The translations under genes and the position numbers were made by a program. Shown piece by piece: positions 308 through 60,362 of a DNA stretch of 64,000 nucleotides (positions are counted from its first letter, which is position 1; each line of letters begins with the position of its first letter). A model generated the notes under the pieces. That model searched no databases. It had not been told where the DNA came from and was given only the letters and a program-made list of their open reading frames with translations. The stretch comes from Deltaproteobacteria bacterium (GTDB taxonomy: Bacteria > Desulfobacterota > JAFDED01): contig JAFDED010000003.1 in assembly GCA_019310535.1 (NCBI GenBank), positions 45,727 to 109,726 on the forward strand, in the 5' to 3' direction.

Positions 308-1669
308 ATGATGGAGCGGATCTATCAATACATCGACAATAACTCTCAGCGCTTTATTTCGGAACTCTTTACTTTTTTGAAGCAGCCGTCCATCAGTTCT
401 CAGCGGATAGGCGTGGAAGAGTGCGCCGGACTGCTGGCCGGAATGATGAAAGAGGCGGGGATACGTTGTGAGATCCTGCCCATGGGAGGTCGTAACAATC
501 CGCCTATGGTCTATGGAGAGATATCCTCCCCCGGCGCCAAAAAGACCGTGCTGATTTATGGACACTTCGACGTGCAGCCCCCGGAACCGCTGGAAGCCTG
601 GGATTCGCCCCCCTTCGAGCCCGTCATTCGTGATGGGCGCATCTATGCCCGGGGAAGCGCGGATAACAAGGGCCAGCTCTTCGCCCACATCAAGGCAGTG
701 GAAGCCATTATGAAAACCACAAAGGACCTGCCGGTCAATCTGAAGTTTCTGTGCGATCCCGAGGAAGAAATCGGCAGTCCCAGCCTGGACGACTTTATCC
801 GGGCTAACTCCCATCGATTCTCTGCGGACGTTGCCTACAACTCCGATGGTGCCATGGACTCCTCAGGCCGCCCCATCCTCTCCTTCGGGAACCGCGGCAA
901 CTGCCATGTGGAGATCAATCACCAGGAAGCTAACCGGGACTTGCATTCCGGCCAGTTCGGGGGTCCCGTCCCCAATCCCAACTGGCATATGATTGACTTC
1001 TTGAGCACCTTGAGGGATTCAAACGGCCGCGTGGCCATCGAAGGGTTTTACGACGACATCGTCCCCCCAACGGCCGCCGAGAAGGATGTAATGGCAAAGA
1101 TTCCCTTCGACGAGGAAAAAACACGTCGGTTCCTGGGGCTCAAGCAATTCGCCGGGCCGAAAGATATGGGGTACTGGGAGAAAATCATGTTCCAGCCGAC
1201 ACTTGAGATCTGCGGCTATACCTCAGGATATGGGGGCGAAGGCACAAAGACGGTCCTGCCCTGTAAGACGAATGTGAAGATCAGCATGAGACTGGTAAAG
1301 AATCAGACTTCCTCCGATATCTTGCAGAAGTTCAAACAACACATGGAGAAGCACGGGTTTGGCGATTTAGAGGTAACGTTCCGTTACGGCTACAACCCGT
1401 CGAAGACGCCCATCGACCATCCCATGAGCAAAGCCGTGGTGGCGGGTGTGAAAAAAGCCTTTCAGAGCGATCCCATTCTCTATCCCGTGACCGGTGGAAG
1501 CAACCCCAGCAGCATTATCACCGATTTTCTGGGGATTCCCATTATCAAAGTGCCGTATGGCAGCCATGACGAATGCAACCATGCACCCAACGAGAACCTG
1601 GTCATCGACCTCTTCATCAAGGGCATCAAGTGCAGCGCCACGGTGTTTTACGAGCTGAGCAAGATCTGA
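308..1669 (+). CDS. M20 family metallopeptidase (dipeptidase-like)
   Basis: This 454-residue protein is a probable cytoplasmic zinc peptidase or amidohydrolase of the M20/ArgE/DapE/CPG2 clan, cleaving small peptides or N-acyl amino acids. The metal-site motifs are in order: YGHFDVQPPEP (His and Asp), RGSADNKGQ (bridging Asp), the general-base pair in DPEEEIGS, and a late His in GSHDECNHAPNE. The dimerisation-domain insert lies roughly at residues 190-310. Length is normal for dipeptidase-like M20 enzymes. The ATG at 308 is chosen over upstream starts because GAGGAGGAGC lies just before it; a second ATG follows directly at 311. The next gene is convergent. The substrate is not predictable, though adjacent aconitase-X genes suggest amino acid or hydroxyproline-like catabolism. 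Confidence 0.85.
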   Translation: MMERIYQYIDNNSQRFISELFTFLKQPSISSQRIGVEECAGLLAGMMKEAGIRCEILPMGGRNNPPMVYGEISSPGAKKTVLIYGHFDVQPPEPLEAWDSPPFEPVIRDGRIYARGSADNKGQLFAHIKAVEAIMKTTKDLPVNLKFLCDPEEEIGSPSLDDFIRANSHRFSADVAYNSDGAMDSSGRPILSFGNRGNCHVEINHQEANRDLHSGQFGGPVPNPNWHMIDFLSTLRDSNGRVAIEGFYDDIVPPTAAEKDVMAKIPFDEEKTRRFLGLKQFAGPKDMGYWEKIMFQPTLEICGYTSGYGGEGTKTVLPCKTNVKISMRLVKNQTSSDILQKFKQHMEKHGFGDLEVTFRYGYNPSKTPIDHPMSKAVVAGVKKAFQSDPILYPVTGGSNPSSIITDFLGIPIIKVPYGSHDECNHAPNENLVIDLFIKGIKCSATVFYELSKI

Positions 1670-1806
1670 TGTGAAAAGCTGATTATCAGGCATCAGGTTG
1701 CATGGATTTGGCTTGTACCCATAAATGTCGCCGGCAAAAATCCAGGGAAGGCTGGAAGGAGAAAAAAAGGGTAATCAGGGAACGAGGGCATACTACGGTC
1801 TCGAAG

Positions 1807-2232
1807 TCACCGTTGGGTCTTGAATACCCGCACCTCGCCGCGGCAAGGATCCATGAACACCCGGTCCCCTGTCTGAATAATCTCGGTGGGGTCGGTGTCC
1901 AGGTCCGCCATGAGGGGAATGCCGGCCAATACCGCTCCCTGCACCATGATCGGATTGGTTACACGGAAGATGAGGCCCGCCGGAGCCATCCCGCGGCTCT
2001 TCATCTGGTGAAGCATCCAGGATGTTGCCACACCTCCCTTGGCCGTGGGGTGCACCAATATCAGCCCCACGTAGCTCATGCCATACAGATCGTGGGACTC
2101 TCTGGAAAAAATTCCCCGTTCCCTGTCCAGGTCGTATCGGGCGCTGAAACCGTGATGGGACACCAGCACCTTTGCCTCGATCTGCTCTCCCACCCCGGAA
2201 TGCCCGCGCAGGATAATAACCCCGTCCTTCAT
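1807..2232 (-). CDS. Aconitase X swivel-domain (small) subunit, DUF126 family
   Basis: This 141-residue protein matches the small swivelling subunit of aconitase X (AcnX-S). It would close over the 4Fe-4S active site carried by the large subunit and complete a dehydratase. Visible family features are the GHSGVGEQIEAKVLVS start, the substrate-pocket segment HPTAKGGVATSW, the conserved NPIMVQGAVLAGIPL segment and the C-terminal TGDRVFMDP. An SD-like GAAAGAGGG precedes the ATG. Characterised AcnX enzymes are 3-hydroxy-L-proline dehydratases in bacteria and mevalonate-5-phosphate dehydratase in archaea. Unusually, the large subunit is encoded divergently 286 bases away rather than next in the same operon. 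Which hydroxy-acid is dehydrated cannot be told from sequence. Confidence 0.85.
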   Translation of the reverse strand: MKDGVIILRGHSGVGEQIEAKVLVSHHGFSARYDLDRERGIFSRESHDLYGMSYVGLILVHPTAKGGVATSWMLHQMKSRGMAPAGLIFRVTNPIMVQGAVLAGIPLMADLDTDPTEIIQTGDRVFMDPCRGEVRVFKTQR

Positions 2233-2326
2233 CTAATGCCCTCTTTCTTGTGGTTCTCCTATTGTAATAACTGTTCTTTCTTTCAAGAACCGAAGACAGG
2301 TGTGCACGCACCATACCGGCCGATAT

Positions 2327-2358
2327 CCATTGACAATGGAAATCTTATACGGTATATT
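2327..2358 (+). promoter_or_regulatory. Sigma-70-type promoter with overlapping palindrome, upstream of AcnX large subunit
   Basis: TTGACA at 2330-2335 and TATATT at 2353-2358 are separated by exactly 17 bases, pointing at the large-subunit gene that starts at 2519 (leader about 155 bases). The -35 box sits inside a perfect palindrome, CCATTGACAATGG (2327-2339), which would suit a dimeric repressor. For the divergent small-subunit gene only a TACAAT-like -10 (complement of 2261-2266) is visible, without a good -35. Confidence 0.55.
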
Positions 2359-2518
2359 CGCATCCGACCTTTGCCGATAGGACAACCAGAAGCTTGCGTA
2401 AAGAGATATTATCATACAGATACTTCACATGCAAGCGGTTGTCCCCGGATGCGCTGAGCGCAGCCCCAACTCAGGCACTGCTTTGAGCGCCTTTACAGGA
2501 ACGTCAATGGAGACCCTT

Positions 2519-3757
2519 ATGAAACTGACCGACGAAGAAAAAGCCATGCTACAAGGAATCAGGGGGGAGGCAGTGCGCCGCGGCATGGAAATGCAGGTTG
2601 CGGTGGGCGAGTTTTTCGGGGCAGAGGACATGGTGCAGGTGCAGTCGGCTCATGTCATGTGCACATCCGACGCTCTGGACGATGCCGGTGCGACTTTTCT
2701 GGAAGAACTGGCCGGGGCGGGCGGGCGGTTCGTTGTGCCAACAACAACAAACGCCGGCAGCGTGGAATTCGATCACGTGGAGTTACTCCAGCAGGACCCC
2801 TCCCACGTGGCGTTACAACGCCGTATTGACACCTCCATGGTGCGCATGGGTGCGCTTAACTGCTGCACGTGTACAAACTACCAGGGGATTATGCCCCCGC
2901 GCTTCGGCGAGCATCTGGCCTGGGGAGACACGGGGGCGGTCATATTTGCCAACGCCGTCGCCGGTGCCCGGAGCAACTTCGAGGGCGGCCCTGCCGCCGT
3001 CGCGGCGGGACTTACGGGCCGCACGCCGCGGTACGGATTTCACCTTGACGCAACGCGCCGGGGGACGGTTCGCGTTGTGGTGCAGGAGCAGCCCCGCACG
3101 ATCAGCGATTGGGGGACACTGGGGTGCTTCATCGGCCGAAAGGTTGACGACTACTGGCAAGTACCGGTGCTGGAAGGGAATCTCGGATATCCCGACGTTG
3201 ATCGGCTCAAGCATCTGGGCGCGTCCCTGGCTAGTTACGGCTCTCTGGCCATGTTCCACATCCCGGGGATAACGCCTGAAATCCGGAGCACGGAGGAAGC
3301 CTTCGGGTTGCGTGAGCCTGACAGGATCATAGAGGTCCACCCCGGTGCCCTCCGGGAGACCTATGACTCGTTCCCCGCCGGAGACGGCTCCGTGGATCTG
3401 GTCATATTCGGCACGCCGCATTTGAGCCTCATGGAGGTCCACGACCTGGCCCGCCGCCTGGAGGGAAAGCGCGTCAACGCGAATGTGAAGCTTCTGCTCA
3501 CCACCAGCAGCTTAGTCAAGAGCATGGCCGAGAGGCTCGGGCTTGTCCGGATCATCGAGGAGGCGGGAGGCACTTTCCTGTGCGGCGTGTGCTTCTACCT
3601 CATGTATCCGGCGGAAATAGCGAGGAAGCTGGGGGTGCGGTCGCTGGCCACCAATTCCGCAAAGCTGGCCAACATCATAGCAGGAGCCGGCATCCGTCCC
3701 GTGCTTCGTGATGAAGAGACATGCATACAGGCGGCTGTCACCGGGAGAGTCGAGTAA
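2519..3757 (+). CDS. Aconitase X catalytic (large) subunit, DUF521 family
   Basis: This 412-residue protein is the catalytic half of aconitase X, an Fe-S dehydratase acting on a hydroxylated carboxylate. Characteristic segments are the start MKLTDEEKAML, the early conserved QVQSAHVM, the pair of cysteines in LNCCTCTNYQG that belong to the cluster-binding region, VFANAVAGARSNFEGGP-like glycine-rich substrate loop, SDWGTLGCFIG, and the late GTFLCGVCFYLMYP plus LATNSAKLANI. ATG 2519 is preferred: GGAG lies six bases upstream and the family consensus begins there; ATG 2507 is an in-frame alternative. It must partner with the DUF126 protein encoded divergently. Known relatives act on hydroxyprolines or mevalonate 5-phosphate; the sequence alone does not choose between these. 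Confidence 0.88.
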   Translation: MKLTDEEKAMLQGIRGEAVRRGMEMQVAVGEFFGAEDMVQVQSAHVMCTSDALDDAGATFLEELAGAGGRFVVPTTTNAGSVEFDHVELLQQDPSHVALQRRIDTSMVRMGALNCCTCTNYQGIMPPRFGEHLAWGDTGAVIFANAVAGARSNFEGGPAAVAAGLTGRTPRYGFHLDATRRGTVRVVVQEQPRTISDWGTLGCFIGRKVDDYWQVPVLEGNLGYPDVDRLKHLGASLASYGSLAMFHIPGITPEIRSTEEAFGLREPDRIIEVHPGALRETYDSFPAGDGSVDLVIFGTPHLSLMEVHDLARRLEGKRVNANVKLLLTTSSLVKSMAERLGLVRIIEEAGGTFLCGVCFYLMYPAEIARKLGVRSLATNSAKLANIIAGAGIRPVLRDEETCIQAAVTGRVE

Positions 3758-45364: not shown

Positions 45365-48300
45365 TCAGTGGTACCCTTCCAGTTCACCCATTGGAAGAAT
45401 CCATCGAAAATCCTCGGGTACAATCTCCTGCCGATGACCGTCTAAGAAGGCTGTTATCTTGCCGTTCTCCCGGCGGAAGCCGAGAGCGAAGGCAGATTCC
45501 AAGCTCATGAGGCGATCCACTATGTCCAGCCACTTCCTTTCATCTATGGGTCGCGTCATACTCCCTTGAAGCTGCGCATCGTCCAATTTTCCCAAGGAAT
45601 CACAGAAAATGACCTCTCCGGCTGATGCACCGGCCAGGACTTTGGCCCCACCGTACGGGGTGTGCATCCGGCGCAGCAACCCGTCGCTTCCCCGGAAAAG
45701 CCCCAGTACCAGCACTGACCCGCCCATGAGCGCCTGGCAGAGGTGTTCGCATGCGGTACCCACAAGGTTAACCTGCAACCCGGGGCCATGGGGGTCGCTC
45801 ACCGCACACACCCAGCTCCTGTCCACAACGTTGCCCAGTATATTAAAAACACCGCCCTTAGCGGCGTAGCCCACCACCTTGCCGACATCGCCGTGAATTT
45901 CCAGCTTGCCGGAATGCATAACCATGCCGGTAAAGTTCTGGGCGTGCCCGTGGACCCGTACAACGGCCCCCATATTGAACGCCCCGCAGTATTCGCCCGG
46001 TGAGCCATGGATATCCACCTCGACACCAGGTGTTTGACCGCGGCCCATACCCATGGCAATGCCGCGCTGGCCTTCGGCCCTGTATATGATAAATTTTCTC
46101 CACCCCAACTCATGGGCATGATCTAGGAAGCAGCCCAGCACCCGCAAAGTATCCACGCCTTCGGATCGGAATCCTCGCGAGTCAACCACCAGCACCTGTC
46201 CTGCTTCCTCTGGCGGCTCCAGATCTCCGGCAGCGGCCATAGTCACCCGAACCGCCCCGTCTCCGCCCGCATGGAGTACTCCCAGGCCATCAAGTATGGC
46301 GTCTATGCGCTGGCGCATTATATGGATCAGCGCCCCCCTGTCCTTGCCTCCTGTTTCCCAACCTGTCAGCCGGTCGTGAATTCGGGTCAGTTCCTCCACG
46401 GCCCGCAGGGATGAAAAACGCCGTTCTACCTGATCCAATGCAGCCTTGAATTCACCAAACCCCCATCCGGGCAATCTCTCCCGCACAAATGCAGCCGGGT
46501 CTGATTCCAGCTCTCCCGTGTCGGCTTCAGCCATGGGGTGGACCTGTTCCTGGGATGGCAAGGTCCCTCGAGGGATTTCCACCGGCCGGCCGAACTTGTC
46601 CAGCACTTCGTGGCCTGTAATCCGCCCCTCCTCGTCATAAAACAGCCGACTGACCATTCCAGTGGTTACCGTGAACGTCCGTGCGGGGACAGTGCTGCGC
46701 AAGATTCCCAGGCGGTGCAGTTCCTGCATACCGGCGTCGCTTCCTTGCTTCTCAGAGCAGATGATGCTTACGAAGCTCTCCCCGTCGTCGTAGAGCATTG
46801 CCACGTTGGGCCGCAGCAGCGAGGGGTCGATGATATCCAGCCGTTCGATTACCCGTCGATACGGATCGATGCGGCCGCACAGGTACTGGTAGGGACCATC
46901 GGGAGCGCTTTCCAGCTCCACCTCCTGGACTCTCTGAAAGCGCTCTCTCATCTCCGGAGGAAGCTGGGTGAAATGCCAGCCGGTGGTGGGAGAAAACGAC
47001 TCGACGAGTGCGTCGAAAGGGTAGCGTAAATATTGGCTGAGCAGGTGGAGCTTGAGGGAAGCCACCGCGGTGTCCGTCTGGGCAAGGGGTGTCAGGTCGA
47101 ACTGGCTCACCCTGTTCAGCATCGTCCTGTAATTGGTGGTCTCACCGTTATGGGTCAGGGCCGTATGCAGTTCGGCGAAGGGGTGGGCGTTCATCTGGTC
47201 CACCACGGAGCCGGTAGCCAACCGCCTGTGGATAATGTTTACGGGCGCATCGGGGAGTTCCCAAGGGATGTGCCGGCCATCGCTCTTCCAGCAACCTGAG
47301 TTTTTGCCGCATGAAAGAACCGCCGCCTTTTTGGGGGTTGCCTCTGTGTAGTTCTCCCGTGTAATCCTGCGCGCCAGTCGGTATATGTACTCGTCCTCGG
47401 CTTCCTGCAGGAACTCCCTGTTATCCCGATAATTTTCAAAGTTCAGCTCCGGGTAACGAATCAGTCGCGGCGGCCAGGCGGAATCGGTCAACAGATCATT
47501 TTCTATAAAGCGATACAACTCTTCAGGACGCACCCGCACGAAGAAGCGAAAAACATCGCAGGGATCCTTCTCTCCGAAGCAACGGAAATCCTGCTCTTGA
47601 CCTTTTTCATCGCGCCGGCAGGGAATGCGGTACTTCTCTAAAAATTCGAAATTTTGGACAAGGTCTCCATCAAAATCATCCAGTTGGAGACCCTTGAAGT
47701 ACTGTTCCAGGATTTCACCCATCATGCACCGACGTTGGGTCATGACTTCCCGCCGAGCCCGTCGTCGAGCTTCTTCGGGGGTAATACCCGGCTCTGATGC
47801 CAGATATTCTCTTTCTACATCCGGCTGCAAAACGCCTTTGATCATGACGTGAAGGGCGTAGTGATCCGGGTGCAGCGGGTAGCATCCACCCTTCCAGATT
47901 CCCACGCCGTCCATGCCGCGGTTGGCCATCCGCTCCAGCATGAGGTCCATCACATGACCCGGGATGACGCGGTTGGACACCACTGCCGCCACCCCGCAAT
48001 CTGATGATTCCCCTACGTGTTTGGTAGTTATGTGTCGTGTGGGTGAAGGAATCTCAGCCGTTTTGTCCTGCATGCGGACGACCTCACGGCGACGGCGGCG
48101 CTTATGGATCCTCTCTTCGAGCTGGGGCCATTCGATGCAATCATAACGCCCTCGGAGCTCACGGATGTCGTTTAAATCCAGGCCCGCCAGAGCGCGGATG
48201 ACCTGGGCCTGTAGAATAGCCCTGTAGTTAATGATTTGGCGGGTGTTCAATTCCACATCGCGTAAAACCTGCATCTTGGGGTCGGAGGTGGAGATGCCGC

Positions 48301-51300
48301 TCCGGCACCCTGACTCGCAGTTTCGGTCCCGCACACATCCGATGGCCACAAGGTCCGCGGTGCCCAGGATAACCCCGTCAAGCCCAAGGGCAATCCCTTT
48401 GATCACGTCCCCCCATGTCCGGAACCCGCCGCTTCCCATGAAGACCACATAATCCCTGAGCCCGTCGTCCATGAGTTTTTCATGGCAGATAGGGACGGCG
48501 TACTCCATGTGCATCCCCATCTGTCCCTTTATAATATCAGGAGCCGCACCGGTGCCCCCACGAGGCCCGTCCAGCCAGACTTCGATGACCATCCGGTTGT
48601 CCTTGGCTATGCGAGCCAATCCGGACACGATGAACTCGATGTCCGGGGACGGGGAGACCTTTATACAAATTGCAACCCGGCGATTGATCATGCGCACAGC
48701 GTCGATGAATGCCTTGACGTCCTCGATGGAATAGCAGTTATGGAAGGGGAAGGGGGAAATAAGGCTGACCCCTTCGGAAACCCCTCGCAACGAGGAGACC
48801 AGGCCGAAGACCTTTCTTCCGAGCAGGTGCCCCCCGATGCCCTGCTTGGCCCCCTGGCTGTAAGCTATGACGACTCGGCGCGCGCGGCGAATGGTCTCCT
48901 TTGTCACTCCGAATAACCCTGTCTTGAGTTCTGTGGAAATGTACGGTTCATCTTCGGGCGTAACAATGGGTACAAACTGGACTGGCATTGAGGCCGGATA
49001 TCGACTCAAGGTCTCAAGTATAGCTTTATATTCCGAAGACCGGTCGAACCCCTGCTGGTGCAACCGGTGAATCAGTTCCTGTAGGGGAACCAGTGTTCTC
49101 TCTTCCATCAGGTTTCCCAATAGGGCCACCTGTTGCTCGCTTAAGTCCAAAGGGTTCCACTCCGAGTCAAGGATGAAAATGGTGGGGTATCCTCCTTCGC
49201 CCGTGTCCAGTTGGGAGCCGAAGGAGCGGGTGGCCAAAACCCGGGCCCGCCACGTCCCAGGCCCAATGGACCCGACGGACATGCCCGCTCCTATGAAGGG
49301 TCCGCGAAGCTGGAGGCCCGGAGATATCTGCAAAGCGGTGCCCACTTCATCCAGTTTCTCTTCGGGAATGCCGTCCGGGTCCTTTGAGAAAAGCACGTTC
49401 ATGTCGTCGAAGCCGTCCCCCAGGTCTCCGCGCTCCTCAGTATTGGCGAGCAGGAGGGCCTGCCGATCACCGGAGGCCATGCGTCCCACCGAGGAAATGA
49501 GCGAAGCAGGCCAGACGTGGTCGAGATCGAAAATGCGGTAGCAGGGGGGTGCCAGGTTCGAGTGGTAAAACCGGTGGGGGGACTCAGTGGGTTGCACCAT
49601 GTCCCGCAACTCGCTGTAACGCAATCCGCGGCGGGCTAGGTCGCCATCCCTTTGAATGCGCTCCCTGTTGCACTGTCGATTTCGTACAATTCTGGAGTGA
49701 CTCCGAAAGATGTCGTAAATCCTTTCTTCCAGGTCGTCGAAAATCAACAGGCGGTTTTCCTCACCCACGGTCTTTTTGATATCCTTGAAACCTGAAGCGC
49801 CTAACACCTCGATAATCTGGATGTTCCAGACACGGATCAGCTTTGCTATGCGATTCGCCAACGCCGCACGGTCGTGCTGGATATTGATGTCTTCTCCCCT
49901 CAGAAAGCGCTGGCGAGCCAGGGGATCGGCCGCCAGCAGCACCGGCCAATCGATCTTTACACCGTTCGCCCCCCGCTGGACTGTTTTCTGAACGTCCGCG
50001 GCAGAGCGGATGCCGCCCGCGGCAAGGATGGAAAAACGGTGCCGCAATTTTTTTTCGATAAGGAACCGATGTAACGCAGGTACTGCATCGGTGGTAAGGT
50101 AGTATTGCTTAACCGGATCGTAATCAGAGGTAAGGCACACGGCGTCAAAGGGTGAATGAAACAGCGTCTCCAGCTTTCTCTCAAACTCGGGGGTGGGCCG
50201 CAGATCCGAGTCCACGTGATTGTTTTCGACTTTCATCACCGCGCAGAGAACAACTGATTCACTGAACAGACCGGGCAGCTTATCCATCCACTCCGGAGCA
50301 CCATTGTCAACCTCGATCTCCACCAGGTCGGGAAAGCGATAACGCCGCGCTTCAGGCCATTGGTTTCCATTCATCAGCCGTTTTACATCGTGAGTCGTCA
50401 ACCGGAGAATCAGCGCATCGATTCTATCTCCTATGGTCGATCCATAGCGGTCCATTTCTTCCAGCCGAACGGTCATTCGGGTCCCCATCCTTATGGCTGC
50501 CTCCAGGGCAGAGTCCAGCAGCGCATCACCTCCCTCCATCGGCATGACATCAAGGATGATGGGAGTTTTCAGCGATACAAGGCTGGGGGCCGAATTATCC
50601 GGGCGGTCTCCATCGAACACCAGGTACTTGGGGCGGCGCCCCAGGTGGATGGCAATAGCATCCGCCGTGCTTTCATAAAGGAGATTCTGAGCAGGCCCAA
50701 CGATGTGAAAATGACCGAAGCGAATGCCGTCGTTGCCGAAGCCGCGGTGCTGGTCCCCTTGGCCCGTACCGGAAACGGGAATTCTGCCTGTGGTGGCTTC
50801 CAGGTCAATGTGGGAGACAACGTGCGCGTTCCAATAAGGATCATCCATGTCAAGGAAGCACGGATGCAACTCAACGGAAGTCGCCGGCTGGCCTGCCGCA
50901 ATTTGAGGGCACCTCTCAAGACAAGCGCCGCAGCCGCGACAAAGCAAATCATCCTCTACCAGCACGAGGCGAGGGTCCGACTCATCGCGCTTGCGCACGC
51001 CATAGATGCAGGCATCCACGCACGTCCCACAGTGGATACACAGCTCGTCGTCAATAAGGACCCGGTATGTTGGAAAGGTATTGCGCTGTTCGCGGATTTT
51101 TTGGTCGAACCCGGTATGGATGACGTCCAGGAATTGGCGAAACTCGCGGCTGCTCTCCACTTCCCGAATAAACCGGGTGACTTCCTGAATTGGGAAATCC
51201 ACATAGCGGGCCAGATATTTCTCCAGTTCATCGAAAAGGTGTCGATGCTTCAGATGAACCTGGCATTCTTCGTCGCAACGGCCGCAGCGCAGACAGTAGT

Positions 51301-52999
51301 ACAGGGGCAAGACTTGTGACAACTCAATTTTCCCTGTTTCCAGCACTCTCTGGATGGTCAGCAGCTTTCCCTTGGCGGTGAGGGTCTCGTCCCCTGTGGC
51401 CCGATAGATCGGGCACCTGGCAACGCAATTCCCGCATTGTGCGCAGGAGAAGATGTCGTTGGATATTTCTTCGAGCCCTCCGGGGATCAACGGAGCGCGC
51501 AACCGGAGGGCTTTAGCCGGGATAATGGAAAACAGCTTAAACAAAAGCCACTGGCTGGCTGACAGCCCGAGGTTATAAATGCCCGAATGGAACAACGTTT
51601 TCTGGAGAGGGCCGAAATTCCCCGAAAAGCCAAAAAACTTCCCCGGGTTAAGGATGCCGGCAGGATCCACCTTTTTCTTGTATTGAATCAATTCTTTCAG
51701 TTCATTTTGCGGGAAGAGGTCGCGCAGAAAAGGCGTGTTCCATATTCCAAGGCCATACGGCTTTCCGCCGTGAGACTGGATTGCCAGCCTGAGCATCATG
51801 GGGATCATCAGTAGATCAGCATAAAAGATCGCTTTACGATGATCAGTGGTCAACATGGCTAATAACAGGACATGCCCGGAGTCAACCAGGTGAGAAATGC
51901 AGTAAAAAGTCACGCCCAGCCTTTGTCCCCATTCGGTGATTTTTTCGTGGTATGGCACAACCTGAGCCAACGGAAGAATCACTTCGTTGGCTAACAACGA
52001 CGGCCCAAGGCGCTTGATGGACATTGGGAAAAAACGCTCCTCCCACAGATATGAAGCTGATTCCTCGTCCCCGGGGAGAATTCCCTGCTCATCGAGATAA
52101 GCCTCAAATACGCGCGCTTTTTCACCATCGGCGAACGTCACCAGCACTACATCCCGTTCGTCAATGGACATCCTGCCATCGGATTGTGCCTTCAAGGCGC
52201 GGATGATTTCGTAATGTTTGACAATGACGGCCTCGGGCCTCAGAGTGCGGTGAAGGACCAACCGCTGTACGAAAGCATATGCGTCGGTCAACTTCTCGAA
52301 GGGAACAACAAATGGATACCAACGGGGAGGCATTTGGGCCACTTGGATCGTGGACTTTACGATAATGCCCATTTGTCCCTCGGTGGAGAGGAAATAGGCC
52401 GTTTCGGGATCTCCGGCCTCAAGTTCCCTAACGTTTCCCTCTGGTGTTACCGCCCGCAGAGAGATCAACTGGTTTCGCACCGGTCCATGGCGGAATGTAC
52501 CCAACCCGATTCCGCCGGTGGCCATCCAGCCAATGAGGGTGCCACCCTTTCCCGAGGGCATGGTGAGCATGGTCATGCCGCGGCCTTGAAGCTCCCGTTG
52601 TATCTCGATGAACCGCGCACCAGGCCCCACCGTCAACCGGGCGGCTTGAGCATCCACCTGGATGGTGTCCATCAACCCAAGGTCGATCAGGAATCCGCCA
52701 CTGGAAGGGACGGCCCCTCCGTATCCCCATGTTCCAGCCCCACGGATGGTCAAAGGTATTTTGTTCTCCCGGGCAAATGCAAAGATCTCAAGAAGGTGCT
52801 CTTCCGCAGTGGGCTGGAGAATCAGGTCCGGCACACTCTTGAGCAGGAGGTCACGAATAATGGGAGGGATATCCACATTCAGATCATGGCGGAAATATTC
52901 CAGCTTTTCCCTGTTATCCACGACCTTCAAATCGGGATATCGGCGAAAAATTCCCTCGAAAGCTTTTCTCCAGGCAGATTGACGATTCTGATTTTTCAC
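45365..52999 (-). CDS. Giant fusion: FAD oxidase, Fe-S modules, glutamate-synthase FMN barrels, amidotransferase and GXGXG domain
   Basis: One open frame of 2544 codons with no internal stop. Residues 1-480 are a GlcD-like PCMH FAD oxidase (TIRGAGTWGYGG, PSGKGGTLIGWMATGG). Residues 519-580 are a GlcF-like cysteine region (CAQCGNCVARCP at 519, CLRCGRCDEEC at 569), and 654-700 a two-cluster ferredoxin (CIHCGTCVDAC, CRGCGACLERC). About 715-1140 is a degenerate GltS-type barrel, and 1180-1590 a fuller FMN/glutamate synthase barrel (LDTGEGGYP, LDGPRGGTGAAPD) with Cys1555, Cys1561 and Cys1565 for a 3Fe-4S cluster. A class II glutamine amidotransferase starts at Cys1668 (SSDCGVAAVVS), and a GltB-like GXGXG helix lies about 2320-2480. 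The start is GTG 52999 with a distant GGAGAG. Order differs from GltB, where the amidotransferase is first. It probably transfers electrons from a hydroxy acid or ferredoxin to glutamate formation, which is inferred. An internal ATG at 48073 has GAGG upstream and could yield a separate 902-residue chain. Confidence 0.85.
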   Translation of the reverse strand: MKNQNRQSAWRKAFEGIFRRYPDLKVVDNREKLEYFRHDLNVDIPPIIRDLLLKSVPDLILQPTAEEHLLEIFAFARENKIPLTIRGAGTWGYGGAVPSSGGFLIDLGLMDTIQVDAQAARLTVGPGARFIEIQRELQGRGMTMLTMPSGKGGTLIGWMATGGIGLGTFRHGPVRNQLISLRAVTPEGNVRELEAGDPETAYFLSTEGQMGIIVKSTIQVAQMPPRWYPFVVPFEKLTDAYAFVQRLVLHRTLRPEAVIVKHYEIIRALKAQSDGRMSIDERDVVLVTFADGEKARVFEAYLDEQGILPGDEESASYLWEERFFPMSIKRLGPSLLANEVILPLAQVVPYHEKITEWGQRLGVTFYCISHLVDSGHVLLLAMLTTDHRKAIFYADLLMIPMMLRLAIQSHGGKPYGLGIWNTPFLRDLFPQNELKELIQYKKKVDPAGILNPGKFFGFSGNFGPLQKTLFHSGIYNLGLSASQWLLFKLFSIIPAKALRLRAPLIPGGLEEISNDIFSCAQCGNCVARCPIYRATGDETLTAKGKLLTIQRVLETGKIELSQVLPLYYCLRCGRCDEECQVHLKHRHLFDELEKYLARYVDFPIQEVTRFIREVESSREFRQFLDVIHTGFDQKIREQRNTFPTYRVLIDDELCIHCGTCVDACIYGVRKRDESDPRLVLVEDDLLCRGCGACLERCPQIAAGQPATSVELHPCFLDMDDPYWNAHVVSHIDLEATTGRIPVSGTGQGDQHRGFGNDGIRFGHFHIVGPAQNLLYESTADAIAIHLGRRPKYLVFDGDRPDNSAPSLVSLKTPIILDVMPMEGGDALLDSALEAAIRMGTRMTVRLEEMDRYGSTIGDRIDALILRLTTHDVKRLMNGNQWPEARRYRFPDLVEIEVDNGAPEWMDKLPGLFSESVVLCAVMKVENNHVDSDLRPTPEFERKLETLFHSPFDAVCLTSDYDPVKQYYLTTDAVPALHRFLIEKKLRHRFSILAAGGIRSAADVQKTVQRGANGVKIDWPVLLAADPLARQRFLRGEDINIQHDRAALANRIAKLIRVWNIQIIEVLGASGFKDIKKTVGEENRLLIFDDLEERIYDIFRSHSRIVRNRQCNRERIQRDGDLARRGLRYSELRDMVQPTESPHRFYHSNLAPPCYRIFDLDHVWPASLISSVGRMASGDRQALLLANTEERGDLGDGFDDMNVLFSKDPDGIPEEKLDEVGTALQISPGLQLRGPFIGAGMSVGSIGPGTWRARVLATRSFGSQLDTGEGGYPTIFILDSEWNPLDLSEQQVALLGNLMEERTLVPLQELIHRLHQQGFDRSSEYKAILETLSRYPASMPVQFVPIVTPEDEPYISTELKTGLFGVTKETIRRARRVVIAYSQGAKQGIGGHLLGRKVFGLVSSLRGVSEGVSLISPFPFHNCYSIEDVKAFIDAVRMINRRVAICIKVSPSPDIEFIVSGLARIAKDNRMVIEVWLDGPRGGTGAAPDIIKGQMGMHMEYAVPICHEKLMDDGLRDYVVFMGSGGFRTWGDVIKGIALGLDGVILGTADLVAIGCVRDRNCESGCRSGISTSDPKMQVLRDVELNTRQIINYRAILQAQVIRALAGLDLNDIRELRGRYDCIEWPQLEERIHKRRRRREVVRMQDKTAEIPSPTRHITTKHVGESSDCGVAAVVSNRVIPGHVMDLMLERMANRGMDGVGIWKGGCYPLHPDHYALHVMIKGVLQPDVEREYLASEPGITPEEARRRARREVMTQRRCMMGEILEQYFKGLQLDDFDGDLVQNFEFLEKYRIPCRRDEKGQEQDFRCFGEKDPCDVFRFFVRVRPEELYRFIENDLLTDSAWPPRLIRYPELNFENYRDNREFLQEAEDEYIYRLARRITRENYTEATPKKAAVLSCGKNSGCWKSDGRHIPWELPDAPVNIIHRRLATGSVVDQMNAHPFAELHTALTHNGETTNYRTMLNRVSQFDLTPLAQTDTAVASLKLHLLSQYLRYPFDALVESFSPTTGWHFTQLPPEMRERFQRVQEVELESAPDGPYQYLCGRIDPYRRVIERLDIIDPSLLRPNVAMLYDDGESFVSIICSEKQGSDAGMQELHRLGILRSTVPARTFTVTTGMVSRLFYDEEGRITGHEVLDKFGRPVEIPRGTLPSQEQVHPMAEADTGELESDPAAFVRERLPGWGFGEFKAALDQVERRFSSLRAVEELTRIHDRLTGWETGGKDRGALIHIMRQRIDAILDGLGVLHAGGDGAVRVTMAAAGDLEPPEEAGQVLVVDSRGFRSEGVDTLRVLGCFLDHAHELGWRKFIIYRAEGQRGIAMGMGRGQTPGVEVDIHGSPGEYCGAFNMGAVVRVHGHAQNFTGMVMHSGKLEIHGDVGKVVGYAAKGGVFNILGNVVDRSWVCAVSDPHGPGLQVNLVGTACEHLCQALMGGSVLVLGLFRGSDGLLRRMHTPYGGAKVLAGASAGEVIFCDSLGKLDDAQLQGSMTRPIDERKWLDIVDRLMSLESAFALGFRRENGKITAFLDGHRQEIVPEDFRWILPMGELEGYH

Positions 53000-53917: not shown

Positions 53918-55165
53918 TCACTCTGCACCCTCCTTCGAGCTTTTTCTCAGGCGCAGGGAAAGACAAGCCCCCAGCAGGGAGACTCCGCCAGCCAAGAAAA
54001 AGGGCTTGGTAAAAGAACTGGTCGCGTCAGCCAGGTACCCGCCAACGCTCGGCCCCAAGGCCTGCCCAACACCAAAGAACAGGGTGATGAAACCAAGACC
54101 AGCTGGTGCCAACTTGGGGCCGACATAATCCCCGGCAGCAGCGGCCATGATAGTGGGGATGCTCCAGGCGGTCAGGCCAAAGACGACTGCTGACAGGTAA
54201 AAGCCGGCCTGGTTTTGGACAAAAGCAAAGATGAGATAAGAAACAGCCAGGATGAGATAGGCCAGGGCCGCCCCCGTCCCCCGTCCCATTTTATCCGAAA
54301 TCCCTCCCCAGATGACTCCACAGAAGATGCTCAGCCCGCCAACTAAAGCCCAGAGCCCGCCAGCCTGACCGGGGCTGAGCTTCACCTCCTTGACCAGGTA
54401 GGCGGCGAAAAAGGTCATATAGATGATATAGGAGAAGCCGTACATGAAGTACACCAGACCCAAATACCAGACCACACCGACTTTATAGATGCTGCCCCAA
54501 TCCATGGCATCGGATGTTGCCTTTGGCGCAGTGTCGATGGGCTCGTCTTTTTTTACCCCCACCTGACGAAGCCCCATTTCGTCCGGTCGACTGCGGATAA
54601 AGAGGACGGCCGCTGCGGCGATCAACATAACCAATCCCCCCAGGTAATACCAGGCGAAACGCCATCCTTCTATGCCGTAGGCTTCCAAAATTAGGGGCAC
54701 AATCAGCCCGGCGATCATGGTCCCGCCGCCGATGCCGGCCGAGACGATCCCGGTGGCAAACCCCCGGCGGTTTACGGCAAACCACGCCGAACCCAGGGCC
54801 ATAGCCGGCACATAGGCGGCCCCGTTGCCTAAACCGGTCAGGAGCCGCATGGCAAAGGCGAAACCAAAGCCCTGCGCCAGTCCGGTCATGATCATGGTTA
54901 TCGCCATCAGGACCAATGCCAGCGCAATCACCAGCCGGGTCCCGAAGCGGGCGGCCAGGAAACCACCGACCAGTGCCATGAACAGATAACCAATAAAATT
55001 GCCCGTGCCCAAAAGACCCAGTTGGGTATAGTTTAAGTGAAGCCCATCTTTCATGGCCGGTAGGATGAGAGTGTAAGACATCCGGCCGAAGCCATGCGCC
55101 CCAACGGTCACCAGGAGGCCGGTGAAAACGATTACCCAACCGTAATGCAGTCTCCCCTTGTCCAT
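53918..55165 (-). CDS. Major facilitator superfamily transporter
   Basis: This 415-residue membrane protein has about 12 transmembrane helices in two halves with a charged central loop near residue 195-215 (RSRPDEMGLRQVGVKKDE). Features include HYGWVIVFTGLLVTVGAHGFGR at the start, the motif-A-like ALVGGFLAARFGTRLVI and GVIWGGISDKMGRG. The type resembles the YbfB/YjiJ or oxalate-formate antiporter group that carries organic anions. GGAG precedes ATG 55165. The substrate is unknown; neighbouring CoA-transferase debris and an enolase-superfamily enzyme suggest a carboxylate. Confidence 0.85.
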   Translation of the reverse strand: MDKGRLHYGWVIVFTGLLVTVGAHGFGRMSYTLILPAMKDGLHLNYTQLGLLGTGNFIGYLFMALVGGFLAARFGTRLVIALALVLMAITMIMTGLAQGFGFAFAMRLLTGLGNGAAYVPAMALGSAWFAVNRRGFATGIVSAGIGGGTMIAGLIVPLILEAYGIEGWRFAWYYLGGLVMLIAAAAVLFIRSRPDEMGLRQVGVKKDEPIDTAPKATSDAMDWGSIYKVGVVWYLGLVYFMYGFSYIIYMTFFAAYLVKEVKLSPGQAGGLWALVGGLSIFCGVIWGGISDKMGRGTGAALAYLILAVSYLIFAFVQNQAGFYLSAVVFGLTAWSIPTIMAAAAGDYVGPKLAPAGLGFITLFFGVGQALGPSVGGYLADATSSFTKPFFLAGGVSLLGACLSLRLRKSSKEGAE

Positions 55166-55633
55166 TAGTTACTCCAATGCAAAGTTGTTCTTCAATTCAA
55201 CACAAATCACCCCAAAAGGTGATCCCCACCGCTGCATTCGCGAAATTCTTTTTTGAACCTCCCTTCTCTCTTGGAAGAAGCAACAATTTATATCGCATTT
55301 GATGTCAGGGCGGCCGTACCAATTTTCGCTTTTTCGTAAAATTCGACTAGAATTCAAGTGCACCCCATTTAATGCGCTGTAATATATGCTCCGGTTTCTT
55401 TCTCAAGTGGTGCAGGTCAAGGCAATTGATTATCACTATCAGGGGTCAGGAGAGGAGTTGGAGGAAGGCCAGCAAGAGCTGTGCAAGAGAAAATTGCACC
55501 GGTTTGAGGCGGCATAGAAAACCCGAGCCTCTGGCCCAGATCAAACCCAGTAAAGTGAGTATTCCTTCTAACAATAAGAATTCCGCCTTAGCATTATAAT
55601 ACTGGAGCTTTGTTACGCCTCATGGCAACATTA
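55166..55633. other. Intergenic region, no feature recognised
   Basis: The 468 bases between the MFS gene and the enolase-superfamily gene, both on the minus strand, carry no convincing gene, known RNA or clear promoter. Confidence 0.4.
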
Positions 55634-56767
55634 CTAAGAAACAGCATATTTCTTAATCTTTTCCCCATCGAGCTCGACCCCCAATCCGGGGCCGGGCAAA
55701 GCAACAACGTATCCTTCCATTCTTGATATATCTTCGTACGTGACCACTTTTTCTGTCACATCGTCTATCTTGGATTGAGAAGCTGGAGCACACCCTTCAG
55801 ATCCTAACCCCATTTGAGCCTGAGCTGTGGATGTCGCGAAATGCCGACAGGCCTGTCTGCCAATTTCGTAAGTATTGGCTCCCCCCACAATACACGGAAT
55901 ACCTGCTGATTCTGCCAGTGCAGCGATTTTCTTAGACCTGAAAAGACCTCCATTTTTCGAAATCTTAATATTCAAGATGTCCGCCGCTTCTTTCTCGATA
56001 ATCTTTTTAGCGCTTTCTAAAGTAGTGTTGCTTTCATCAGAGCTGATGGGAGTATCCACCGCCCGTGCCACCCGTGCCATACCGTCTATGTCCCAGCGTT
56101 TAACCGGTTCTTCAACGAACTCGGGATCGTATTTCTCCATCCGTCTGATGATTTTTATAGCTTGATCCGGCCTATAAGCTTCATTCGCATCCAGTCGAAT
56201 CTTGACCTCTGGACCAACAGCCTCCCTCACCAACTTCAGCCGTTCTATATCGTATTCAGGCTCATGTCCTATTTTAACCACAAGGGTTAAGTAACCCAGA
56301 CTTTTTCGAATCTCAGCCTGTTCAGCCATTTTTTCAGGTGTGTCGATGCTAAGAGTATAAGTAGCAAGAATCTTGGGCTTATATTCGCCTCCGAGCAGCT
56401 TATAAGCCGGCAGATCAAGCGCCTTGCCCATTATGTCCCAAAGTGCCAGATCAATCCCTGATTTTGCAATTAAATTTCTTGGTACAACAGCATCCATCTT
56501 TTTATGAATGAGCTCAATATCAAAGGGGCCTTCTCCAATGATTTCCGGAGCAAGATAATGATCGATCATAGGTTTTGTACTCTCAGGTGTTTCCTCTGAT
56601 ACCCCTCCTCCGGGAACGAAAGAGGATTCACCTATGCCGACAATACCGTCATCCGTCCATACCCAAACCACCACATTGCTGAAGGCCCTCAAGACCCCAT
56701 GGGAAAAGACGTACGGTGTTTCCACAGGTATCCTGACAATCTTCGTCTCGATTTTGGTTATCTTCAC
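55634..56767 (-). CDS. Mandelate racemase / muconate lactonizing enzyme family protein (enolase superfamily)
   Basis: This 377-residue protein has the enolase-superfamily capping domain (residues 1-125) and barrel. The metal ligands are Asp in KIRLDANEAY, Glu in EFVEEPVKRW and Asp in SSDESNTTL; a barrel Lys in LNIKISKNGGL is the second base. The first-base motif reads TLVVKIGHEP, keeping one Lys before IG but lacking the first Lys of the usual KxK. These enzymes abstract a proton alpha to a carboxylate in racemases, cycloisomerases or sugar-acid dehydratases. GTG 56767 gives the canonical MKITKIE start; GTG 56776 is possible but has poor SD spacing. The substrate is unassigned. Confidence 0.87.
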   Translation of the reverse strand: MKITKIETKIVRIPVETPYVFSHGVLRAFSNVVVWVWTDDGIVGIGESSFVPGGGVSEETPESTKPMIDHYLAPEIIGEGPFDIELIHKKMDAVVPRNLIAKSGIDLALWDIMGKALDLPAYKLLGGEYKPKILATYTLSIDTPEKMAEQAEIRKSLGYLTLVVKIGHEPEYDIERLKLVREAVGPEVKIRLDANEAYRPDQAIKIIRRMEKYDPEFVEEPVKRWDIDGMARVARAVDTPISSDESNTTLESAKKIIEKEAADILNIKISKNGGLFRSKKIAALAESAGIPCIVGGANTYEIGRQACRHFATSTAQAQMGLGSEGCAPASQSKIDDVTEKVVTYEDISRMEGYVVALPGPGLGVELDGEKIKKYAVS

Positions 56768-57002
56768 TTGTATCACATTCCTTTATTCAGGCGTCCAAAT
56801 CCTCACTGCCCTGTTAAATCCCCCATAATGCCATACTGAAAAGAACGCAACCTGGCATAAATCCATCCTTCCGAATTGAAATACTATAAACGCCTTGGCG
56901 CGTCTTCGTACAAAACGCCTGCAAAAGCTTACAATGAGTGTTTCTCTCGCCTATCTCCAGGTTTTGGATTCCTCATACGTCACCGGCCGTATGGGTAAAG
57001 GA

Positions 57003-57272
57003 TTAGTGCCAACTAATTCCTTTATTGGTGAGATATTCGTCAAGAATCCCCTCGATGAAATCCGAAAATTGTATCTGATGATCCATGGCCATTCTCCCCA
57101 AGGTTGCCAGCATCTTCCCGGGAATCTCCAGGGGCACGGTCCGGTAGTTCATCGTATGTTGCTTATCATACCATGTATTGATTTCTGCCATTCTGGCAGC
57201 ATGTTCTTCAGGGCTCAATTTCTCCTTGGCATACCATCCGGAGATCTCCAGGCGTTTTTTCCCTTCCTCCAT
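57003..57272 (-). CDS. Small protein of unknown function upstream of the enolase-superfamily gene
   Basis: This 89-residue protein has a strong TAGGAGGTCAAA site before ATG 57272. It contains LSPEEHAARMAEINTWYDK and a hydrophobic-patterned FSDFIEGILDEYLTNK, so it looks helical and soluble, without cysteines or membrane segments. No family was recognised. It starts nine bases after the DUF1847 gene stop and is probably cotranscribed with it. Confidence 0.6.
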   Translation of the reverse strand: MEEGKKRLEISGWYAKEKLSPEEHAARMAEINTWYDKQHTMNYRTVPLEIPGKMLATLGRMAMDHQIQFSDFIEGILDEYLTNKGISWH

Positions 57273-57281
57273 TTTGACCTC

Positions 57282-58049
57282 CTATCTTCCCCCGGTTTCT
57301 GACATGGGTTTTCCCAACCGGCCGTAATAGAAATTGCAAGGCGGATATCCTTGATAGAGTGCGGCGGCGGGATTATGTCCCGTTCGGCGATCCTTGACGA
57401 TGAGAGTCGTTACCGGCGCCTCGGAAACCCGGGTAAAAGAGATATCATGACCGAGGCAAAGGCCGACGATGACATTCAGATCCGTTTTTTCTTCATTCAT
57501 GATTAAAGCCTGGGCGATATTGTTGCAAATGGTTTCGAATGTAAACATTCTGACCTTTTCATCTTCCTGAATTCCGATCTCGCCTTTTTCAATAGCCCCG
57601 ACTTTGCAATTGACCTGAACCGTCTGGAATCCTCTGGCCTGAAACATTTCACTGAGAATTTTGGCCTCACCGATACAACCTATGCAGTGGGCGAATCCGA
57701 TCTTTTTATAGCCCATCATCTTGGAGAACATAATCAACTCTTCTACCCGGGTCATCTTCATGTTGATTTCCGTTCCCCCGGGAGGGGTCTGTGAAGACAT
57801 GCCTTCCAGCCTGGCCCCGGCCAATTGCATCTTTCGGTGGAAATGATCATTCATATAGATTTCCTTGGCCCTGGCAATGATGTCCGGATAGTTTTTTGTG
57901 GGACAGTCACCGGGTCCTTTGAGAATATCCCCGGGCTCTTTGGGCCAGCAGGCCATGACTGTGCAATGGTCGCATCTGGGTGATTTTCTTCCGTCCGGAA
58001 CTTCTTGCTCGGGAATATGCTTTGAATATTTAACCTTCTTTTTAGCCAT
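57282..58049 (-). CDS. DUF1847 family cysteine-rich protein
   Basis: This 255-residue protein matches the DUF1847 family, predicted metal-binding. Conserved cysteine segments are CDHCTVMACW, GDCPTKNYPD, FAHCIGCIGEA, VNCKVGAIEKGEIG and GLCLGHDISF, with a C-terminal VTTLIVKDRRTGHNPAAALYQ. The function is not known; the cysteine pattern suggests a metal or Fe-S site. A textbook AAAGGAGG lies before ATG 58049. It is followed by the small 89-residue gene. The plus-strand GntR gene diverges from it. Confidence 0.82.
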   Translation of the reverse strand: MAKKKVKYSKHIPEQEVPDGRKSPRCDHCTVMACWPKEPGDILKGPGDCPTKNYPDIIARAKEIYMNDHFHRKMQLAGARLEGMSSQTPPGGTEINMKMTRVEELIMFSKMMGYKKIGFAHCIGCIGEAKILSEMFQARGFQTVQVNCKVGAIEKGEIGIQEDEKVRMFTFETICNNIAQALIMNEEKTDLNVIVGLCLGHDISFTRVSEAPVTTLIVKDRRTGHNPAAALYQGYPPCNFYYGRLGKPMSETGGR

Positions 58050-58338
58050 TAAAACCTCCTTTCATAGTGCCTTATGCGTCAGCTTCACCCTGTGCGCCAA
58101 AATTGATTCCTTTCGCCTTAAGCATACCTTATCCGGCGACATATTGTCCGGCGTTTTATTATAGCGCCGGCCATTGGAGTCTGCAACAGAGTATCGGCCC
58201 TCCTCCAGTTCCTCCGCCCCGGAGCGGGAGGTAATCCCCCGGAGCCGCAATTACTCATTTTTCCTCTGAAAATTCGGAGGCGGCATGATCATATTGAAAT
58301 CATATTGAAATAATAATAACATAGAAATGAATTTTTAC

Positions 58339-58367
58339 TTGACAAATCGATGAAGCCCCAATAAATT
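58339..58367 (+). promoter_or_regulatory. Sigma-70-type promoter of the GntR gene
   Basis: TTGACA (58339-58344) and TAAATT (58362-58367) are separated by 17 bases. A FadR-like half-site GACCAGTT lies at 58399-58406, but its other half is not recognisable. The intergenic region (58050-58441) has no other feature, and the GntR ATG lacks a visible Shine-Dalgarno sequence. Confidence 0.5.
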
Positions 58368-58441
58368 GCATTAAATTATTTAATTTATCATATCATCAGA
58401 CCAGTTTTCAATTTTATAATAAATACGAATAATACATAACA

Positions 58442-59188
58442 ATGCCTTCTACCTCTACCTCAGAATTCCTAAGACCTGCCAGGAGAATCAAAATCTCTGA
58501 TGATATTTATCACCAGATTCTTTCCTATATTTCAAAGGCTGATCTTAAGCCAGGCCATAAACTCCCCTCCGAGCGAGAGCTCTCAGAGCTTTTTTCCACC
58601 GGCCGATCAGCGGTCAGAGAGGCGTTAAGGTTCCTGGAAGCTCTCCAGATCGTTGAAGTGTATCAGGGGAAGGGATATTTTGTTAAGAAGTTCGACTACG
58701 ATGCGTACATTCAATTTCTCAGCCTAAGCATTTCAATGAAGCAGGGATCAAATTCCTTTTCCTTATCGGAATTCTGGGAAGCGAGAAAAATGCTGGAATC
58801 AAGACTTTGCGCCATGGCTGCCAGACGCATGGACACCGCCAAATGCTCTGAACTTCAAAAGATCCATAGGAAAATGCATGAATCCTTGGGAGAGCCGGAC
58901 TATTTCGCAAGGTCGGCAACGATGTTTCATCGCGAAATCGCCAAGATCGCCGGCAATAAAGTTCTGTTATTTCTTCTGGATTGTTTGCTGACCATTCGCC
59001 CCCATGTCCGAAAAAAAGCCATGTCCAGGCCTCAATTTCGGTTTGAAGTTCTCAGGTCGCACAAGAACATCATTGACTGCTTTTTGAAAAATGACCCGGC
59101 AGGAGCGGGGAAGGCCATGAAGCAACATCTGGACAGTGTTGATCAGTTTTACACGTGCGCCATGGGCACGTTTAATTCCGGGCCTTAA
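58442..59188 (+). CDS. GntR/FadR-type transcriptional regulator
   Basis: This 248-residue repressor has a winged HTH (residues 20-85, with KLPSERELSELFSTGRSAVREALRFLEA and the wing QGKGYFV) and an FCD ligand-binding domain (about 100-240). FCD metal-site histidines are in MFHREIAKIAGN, LRSHKNIID and MKQHLDSVDQF. FCD regulators sense small carboxylates and control adjacent catabolic or uptake genes; the TRAP operon just downstream is the obvious target. ATG 58442 has no good SD, which may mean weak or leaderless translation. Effector unknown. Confidence 0.9.
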   Translation: MPSTSTSEFLRPARRIKISDDIYHQILSYISKADLKPGHKLPSERELSELFSTGRSAVREALRFLEALQIVEVYQGKGYFVKKFDYDAYIQFLSLSISMKQGSNSFSLSEFWEARKMLESRLCAMAARRMDTAKCSELQKIHRKMHESLGEPDYFARSATMFHREIAKIAGNKVLLFLLDCLLTIRPHVRKKAMSRPQFRFEVLRSHKNIIDCFLKNDPAGAGKAMKQHLDSVDQFYTCAMGTFNSGP

Positions 59189-59207
59189 ATGCAGAACCTC
59201 TTAAATA

Positions 59208-59234
59208 CAGAGGCATACTGAGAAAGAGCCTCTG
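59208..59234 (+). terminator. Stem-loop after the GntR gene
   Basis: CAGAGGC (59208-59214) and GCCTCTG (59228-59234) form a perfect seven-pair stem with a 13-base loop. No U-tract follows, so it is a weak terminator or processing signal. Confidence 0.35.
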
Positions 59235-59281
59235 CCAGTTAATTCAAAGGAGGTGGTGGAGACACATAAATAATTGGGTAA

Positions 59282-59307
59282 TTGAGAGTCTCAAACAATA
59301 ATTGTTT
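59282..59307 (+). promoter_or_regulatory. Two overlapping palindromes just upstream of dctP, candidate operators
   Basis: TTGAGAGTCTCAA (59282-59294, 6+1+6) and AAACAATAATTGTTT (59293-59307, 7+1+7) are both perfect and overlap by two bases, immediately before the dctP ribosome site. Their position fits an operator for the GntR regulator, which is inferred. Confidence 0.45.
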
Positions 59308-59333
59308 CAATGAGAAAAATGGAGGGAACGTTC

Positions 59334-60362
59334 ATGAAAAAAAGATTTTTCTGGATTTCTCTTGTGTCTTGTGCATTGCTGGTTGTCTCATATTCGCTGG
59401 CGGGGCCGGCATGGGCCGGGTTTGCAAAAAAGCCGAAGTACATCCTGAACTTCGGACACTGCGTACCCGAGGACCATCCCTACCACATAGGGGCAGTGCG
59501 CTTCCAGGAGGCCGCTGCGGCGCGATCCGACGGGGAGCTCAAGATAGAGATATTCCCTAATTTCCAGCTTGGAAGCGAACAGGAACAATATAAGGCCTGC
59601 CAGATGGGAACCCAGGATATCGCCCTGGGCGCCATCAACAACGCTGCTCCCTTCTGGCCGCCCTTCAACGTGTTCATCATGCCCTATCTTTTCAGAAGCC
59701 TGGAACATGCCTGGGCAGTGGCGGATGGATCGGTAGGCAAGGAGCTTAAAGAGAAGTTTCTCAAAAACACGGGACTGAGGACTATCGCGCTGTTTGACCT
59801 GGGATTCCGCTCCCTGAGTAATTCCAAGCGACCCATTACCAAGCCCGCGGACCTGAAAGGGGTCCTGTTCCGGGTACCGAAAAATCCCGTGATGGTCGAG
59901 ACGACCAAGGCCATGGGCGCCGACGCCATTCCCATGGCGTGGAGCGAAGTGTTCAACGCACTCAAGCAGGGGGTGGTGGACGGTCAGGACACCCCTCCCG
60001 CCGTTACCCTTTCCATGAAGTTTTATGAAGCACGCCAGAAATACTACTCGCTGACAAAACACTTTTACGCATATGCCATTACGCTGATGAGCGAGAAGAA
60101 ATACCAGTCTCTCCCTCCCCACATCCAGAAAGCGCTTGACCTAGCGGCCAGGGATGCGGAACTCTACCAGAGAGGCTATAGCGTCCGCTTTACCGAAGGT
60201 TCCATTGAGGCGTTGGAAGCCCACGGCATGAAAGTCAACGACATTCCTGACCGCTCGGCATTCGTCAAGGCTGTAGAGCCGGTTTGGGCAAAGTTCACAA
60301 AGGAAATCCCTGAGGTGAAAGTATTCGGAGATAAGATCCGGGCCGTGCCGACAGTTCATTAA
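59334..60362 (+). CDS. dctP: TRAP transporter solute-binding protein DctP
   Basis: This 342-residue periplasmic binding protein has a signal peptide (about residues 1-25, FFWISLVSCALLVVSYSLAG) and the TRAP SBP (DctP/SiaP) fold. Family features are LNFGHCVPEDHPYHIGAVRF at the start, GELKIEIFPNFQLGSEQE, LGFRSLSNSKRPITKPADL, the binding Arg in LKGVLFRVPKNPVMVETT, and WSEVFNALKQGVVDGQD. GGAGGG lies seven bases before ATG 59334; the upstream codons in frame are unlikely. The ligand is probably an organic acid, given the Arg that pairs with its carboxylate. Confidence 0.93.
   Translation: MKKRFFWISLVSCALLVVSYSLAGPAWAGFAKKPKYILNFGHCVPEDHPYHIGAVRFQEAAAARSDGELKIEIFPNFQLGSEQEQYKACQMGTQDIALGAINNAAPFWPPFNVFIMPYLFRSLEHAWAVADGSVGKELKEKFLKNTGLRTIALFDLGFRSLSNSKRPITKPADLKGVLFRVPKNPVMVETTKAMGADAIPMAWSEVFNALKQGVVDGQDTPPAVTLSMKFYEARQKYYSLTKHFYAYAITLMSEKKYQSLPPHIQKALDLAARDAELYQRGYSVRFTEGSIEALEAHGMKVNDIPDRSAFVKAVEPVWAKFTKEIPEVKVFGDKIRAVPTVH

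Follow-up and report, generated by a model that had tools for sequence, protein, structure and literature searches.

The window analysed here, i.e. the 64,000-nucleotide stretch of contig JAFDED010000003.1 (positions 45,727 to 109,726) from the Deltaproteobacteria bacterium assembly GCA_019310535.1, contains on its reverse strand an open reading frame (ORF, 45365..52999) that begins with a GTG codon, has no internal stop and encodes a protein of 2,544 residues, in which the modules of a glutamate synthase (GltS) are joined to a flavin adenine dinucleotide (FAD) and iron-sulfur (Fe-S) front end. In the glutamate synthases known so far, either NAD(P)H or ferredoxin serves as the electron donor. 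The original prediction, made from the DNA letters, had described this ORF as a hydroxy-acid oxidase module fused to a permuted glutamate synthase, and both the single frame and the domain order given there are confirmed by the ORF call and by a Pfam scan of the translation. The chain begins with a GlcD-like FAD domain of the VAO/PCMH type (aa 1-460, 51620..52999; Pfam and PDB alignment), comprising FAD_binding_4 (aa 57-193) and FAD-oxidase_C (aa 231-454), which is followed by two GlcF-type [4Fe-4S] motifs with eight cysteines (aa 512-585, 51245..51466; Fer4_8 at 518-582) and by a 2x[4Fe-4S] ferredoxin domain with eight more (aa 640-705, 50885..51082; Fer4_7 at 654-699), the latter being homologous to a stand-alone subunit of split-gene relatives. 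Next come a degenerate first GltS-type barrel (aa 715-1100, 49700..50857), recognised by homology to stand-alone subunits and from an AF2 model, and a flavin mononucleotide (FMN)-type GltS barrel with a GAKQG(V/I)GGH motif (aa 1222-1620, 48140..49336; PF01645, Glu_synthase, at 1222-1606, and alignment with GltB structures), within which a C-x5-C-x3-C motif (aa 1555-1565, 48305..48337) holds the presumed [3Fe-4S] ligands. A variable linker (aa 1622-1667, 47999..48136) then leads to the codon of Cys1668 (47996..47998), the predicted nucleophile of a class II glutamine amidotransferase domain (aa 1668-2140, 46580..47998) with HRRLAT, THNGE and QTDT motifs; this domain was assigned from Pfam, conservation and a structural model, and its GATase_6 match (aa 1909-1979, 25.6 bits) lies just under the 27-bit cut-off. 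The chain ends with the GXGXG beta-helix domain and the C-terminus (aa 2260-2544, 45368..46222), where PF01493 (2325-2473) scores 38.4 bits against a cut-off of 32.5. Neither the GltB central-domain family nor a CCG domain after the GlcF-type motifs was among the 16 Pfam families of the scan, and a GltD-like domain is neither fused to the chain, as judged by Pfam, nor found within the ten neighbouring ORFs scanned, in agreement with the original prediction.

The same architecture recurs in about a hundred related proteins. A protein search, in which 7,990 candidates were scored, gave 308 relatives, and 105 of the best 120 listed exceed 2,400 aa in length; among them is the window's own protein (P0001), and the other 104 align with it throughout and keep every cluster cysteine. 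In an alignment of 106 rows, over which all conservation counts for the fused protein were taken, the 16 cysteines of the four [4Fe-4S] motifs are invariant. Named genomes contributed 15 loci, of which 14 carry the fusion (L023 is a match to the FAD part alone), and the frame is uninterrupted in 12 of the 14, whose hosts are Syntrophaceae, Deltaproteobacteria, Thermodesulfobacteriota and other metagenome-assembled genomes. In the order to which genome G044 belongs, the FMN barrel is found at 76-84% identity in 14 of 17 genomes, and in 11 of those 14 it lies in one continuous frame of at least 2,531 aa, although this count and that of the named loci are not independent, because largely the same genomes are involved. 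A relatives search in 59 genomes found the fusion in the window's genome, in G044 and, in two pieces, in G007. The notion that separate genes were joined into one frame by an error of assembly or sequencing, for which three interrupted related copies might be cited, is therefore refuted by the homologues, i.e. the 104 other long proteins and the 12 named loci, in different genomes, at which the frame is intact, and we give it virtually no credence; likewise, the hidden stops or frameshifts that could have undone the original prediction find no support. As for the interrupted copies themselves, L019 is broken at assembly Ns, and a homopolymer run lies close to each of the breaks in L044 (~14634) and L021 (~4714), which are probably due to sequencing error or recent loss.

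The synthase half has two of the features by which a GltS can be recognised, i.e. an FMN barrel with a GAKxGxGG motif and three [3Fe-4S] cysteines, and a GXGXG domain. The FMN barrel aligns with five distinct GltB sequences in the PDB (E 8.4e-35 or better), with C1555, C1561, C1565 and K1385, each present in 106 of the 106 rows, in register with their GltB counterparts. The case for the first barrel (~715-1100) is weaker. It is homologous to stand-alone barrel subunits of ~454-469 aa, GltB chains are the top structural matches to its AF2 model (mean pLDDT 70), and its best fit is to the FMN-domain range of GltB; it is without the cysteines that most of its stand-alone relatives have at the cluster position. 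Compared with GltBD of Azospirillum brasilense (1ea0, 6s6s) and the ferredoxin-dependent enzyme of Synechocystis (1ofd), the fusion shares the amidotransferase, the FMN barrel, including its three cluster cysteines, and the GXGXG domain, but the order is FMN barrel, amidotransferase and GXGXG instead of the canonical amidotransferase, central, FMN and GXGXG; furthermore, it adds the degenerate second barrel and the FAD/Fe-S front end, and has no GltD part. Permuted GltS parts are also found in the archaeal split GltS of Ignicoccus hospitalis (Igni407/408), which runs GXGXG, ferredoxin and then FMN (PMC2614490). The amidotransferase there is a separate polypeptide, hence without an internal nucleophile, and the description given of it mentions no FAD module (PMC2614490).

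The amidotransferase has the cysteine nucleophile, the arginine and the Asn-Gly pair of class II enzymes: Cys1668 and the GV that follows it, R1925, N1951 and G1952 are all invariant, and we take Cys1668 to be the nucleophile, R1925 to play its usual part and N1951-G1952 to be the Asn-Gly of the oxyanion hole. In the structural alignment Cys1668 (model residue 29) falls on residue 1 of 6s6s_A, 1ofd_A and 1ea0_A. Class II amidotransferases use an N-terminal cysteine, and canonical GltB is processed by loss of its leader. In the fusion, on the other hand, the nucleophile is internal to a chain of some 2.5 thousand residues in all of the 106 rows, after a linker of 32-110 aa that ends in (S/A)(D/N), and the model has pLDDT values below 50 for aa 1640-1666 (model residues 1-27). 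Since Cys1668 corresponds to Cys1 of mature GltB, yet sits internally behind a variable linker, we predict a cleavage between residues 1667 and 1668, which would give chains of 1,667 and 877 aa. The alternative is that the chain stays whole, with an amidotransferase that is inactive or structural, and that free ammonia is used instead; it draws on the internal position of the nucleophile throughout the family and on the fact that cleavage is only predicted, but the invariance of the active-site residues and a linker that varies in length and sequence as a removable leader would make it unlikely.

At the other end of the chain, a PCMH-type FAD domain and FAD-oxidase_C are both recognised by Pfam, while the score against the NCBIfam model for glcD (TIGR00387) is 89.9 bits, far under the cut-off of 567.9, and the fusion is 22-25% identical to the GlcD-like matches of its own genome over at least 400 aa. 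It has the FAD fold and an Arg/Lys pair in common with GlcD/LctD-type enzymes and D-2-hydroxyglutarate dehydrogenase (7qh2_C, 9qgz_A, 6lpn_A), with R322 and K329, both invariant, standing opposite the Arg and Lys of LctD (7qh2_C), and as in such systems two GlcF-like [4Fe-4S] motifs come after the FAD domain; the CCG domains are absent from the fusion. A separate gene for such a front end was found in genome G029 (L038), where four same-strand genes, no more than 42 bases apart and in the order seen in the fusion, encode an FAD/Fe-S protein (630 aa), a ferredoxin-barrel protein (469 aa), an FMN barrel (493 aa) and an amidotransferase-GXGXG protein (877 aa). This arrangement supports the suggestion in the original prediction that the FAD/Fe-S part stands in for GltD.

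The genomic context of the relatives points to nitrogen metabolism. A glutamine synthetase gene lies directly upstream of the fused gene in 13 of the 14 testable relatives and directly downstream in the other (L011), and CarA and CarB are encoded downstream in 13 of the 14, the exception (L009) having a flank of only 1.5 kb. These counts leave out L021, which has no flank, and L045, which repeats L020, and they rest on family scans at L022 (type I glutamine synthetase) and L010 (glutamine synthetase) and, elsewhere, on similarity to the L022 proteins. Neither these flanking glutamine synthetase and carbamoyl-phosphate synthase genes nor the internal nucleophile, which would need cleavage, had been noticed in the original prediction.

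Taken together, we consider it probable, as far as sequence can tell, that the protein is a glutamate synthase-type enzyme made as a single chain with its own FAD/Fe-S electron input and a predicted cleavage site, and we class it as an architecturally new form of glutamate synthase. The FAD domain would oxidise a small organic substrate, and the electrons entering at the FAD would pass through the [4Fe-4S] clusters to the FMN, where ammonia released from glutamine would be used for the reductive amination of 2-oxoglutarate to glutamate; the 1,667- and 877-aa chains, once cleavage had freed the N-terminal cysteine, would stay in one complex. It is likely that the reducing power arrives through this front end, with no separate subunit for NAD(P)H involved. 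The bolder form of this proposal, i.e. a self-powered synthase depending on neither NAD(P)H nor ferredoxin, in which oxidation of an organic compound at the FAD feeds the four [4Fe-4S] clusters and then the FMN, and which cuts itself a single time, immediately ahead of its internal N-terminal nucleophile (Ntn) cysteine, is put forward tentatively.

Several observations weigh against a glutamate synthase with its own FAD input, and they concern both the front end and the product. The signature of GlcD-type metal ligands and catalytic His is not kept in the 106 rows: the Glu and His of the LctD SGEHG motif are replaced by P414 and Y415, both invariant, and while the first metal His (H370) is present in all rows, the second occurs in just 5. 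Since the invariant Pro and Tyr take the places of the metal Glu and the catalytic His, the label hydroxy-acid oxidase is weakened. In addition, an FAD gene stands alongside the GltS genes in just one of the eight split-gene loci; none was seen in the fetched stretches of the other seven (L039-L043, L046 and L047), one of which (L041) lies on a contig that ends on the side where the FAD gene would stand, so these seven relatives likely obtain their electrons elsewhere. It is thus possible, though in our view doubtful, that the FAD domain does not oxidise a substrate but acts as a relay or second exit or is vestigial, and that reduced ferredoxin or some other redox protein delivers the electrons by docking at the Fe-S domains, whose four [4Fe-4S] motifs are possible entry points. 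Against this, besides the invariance of R322, K329, P414 and Y415 within the fusion, Y415 is conserved in 73 of 73 aligned non-fusion relatives (L038 and 72 listed proteins, with four shorter proteins of that range left out), so that the FAD site has the look of an active site that is in use but of a different kind. The 2-hydroxy acid suggested earlier as donor is possible but not established, and because Tyr replaces the catalytic His, the domain probably does not act on glycolate or lactate by the usual mechanism. The proteins P0159-P0230 are FAD/Fe-S proteins of mostly ~600-740 aa with an invariant Tyr at the GlcD catalytic-His position; proteins of this type are not known to us to have been described, although the literature was not searched for them.

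With regard to the product, the Glu of the GltB GAKPGEGG motif is Val (103/106) or Ile (3/106) in the fusion and Leu in the split-gene relatives, and since this Glu is lost, substrate binding may differ. Neither glutamine synthetase nor CarAB is encoded within the window, and its genome (G000) has a second, conventional GltS of the split type on contig C51 (L004; E 1.6e-55 against PF01645), which consists of a 544-aa Fer4 and FMN protein (1384-3018) and a frame (6-1322) in which a GXGXG domain is followed by Fer4_20 and a dinucleotide-binding motif, i.e. a GltD-like part truncated where the sequence examined ends; this contig could be foreign, since the contamination estimate for G000 is 5.89%. 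G068 also has a further strong PF01645 match (E 1.4e-105), most of the 12 fusion genomes have weaker ones above the cut-off (E 5e-11 or weaker), and a glutamate dehydrogenase-family gene (PF00208) was found in 13 of the 14 genomes searched, a set that includes the non-fusion genome G029 as well as G044 and G067, whose matches are identical and which are probably one genome. The altered motif, the second GltS in G000 and the dehydrogenase genes would suit a GltS-like amidotransferase or aminotransferase with a product other than glutamate, or one that runs towards glutamate oxidation. We regard this as improbable, as glutamine synthetase adjoins the gene in all 14 testable relatives and CarAB is nearby in 13, and the fusion is the sole strong PF01645 match in 10 of the 12 fusion genomes.

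If glutamate synthesis with an own FAD/Fe-S input holds, nitrogen assimilation would be tied to another oxidation, an arrangement that would be sensible for energy-limited anaerobes, and D-2-hydroxyglutarate, if with luck it proved to be the substrate, would also provide the 2-oxoglutarate. The internal Ntn nucleophile yields one clear prediction, a single cut at 1667/1668. The split GltS of the same phylum have the modules of the fusion in the same order, as a ferredoxin-plus-barrel protein of ~454-469 aa, an FMN barrel of ~500 aa and an amidotransferase-plus-GXGXG protein of ~870-895 aa (42-47% identity to the fusion over the FMN segment and 28-32% over amidotransferase plus GXGXG), but these are separate genes, and their FMN subunits and most of their barrel-1 subunits have extra cysteines that the fusion does not. 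In L046 both barrels are fused in one 1,000-aa gene. The four-gene and three-gene relatives form a natural series for tracing how the giant enzyme was assembled, in which the fusion may stand last, the direction being our inference.

The split clusters at L040, L042 and L047 (three of the eight) adjoin genes of the methylenetetrahydrofolate reductase (MTHFR) family; DUF5981 genes occur at L040 and L047, and an NrpR-type regulator at L040. In the window, genes for homoserine dehydrogenase and threonine synthase come after the fused gene, and an MFS transporter gene and one of the enolase superfamily lie before it. The window also has a region (53918-60362) that encodes an MFS transporter, an MR_MLE enolase-superfamily protein, DUF1847, a GntR/FCD regulator and a DctP TRAP binding protein, and that looks like a cluster for organic-acid use.
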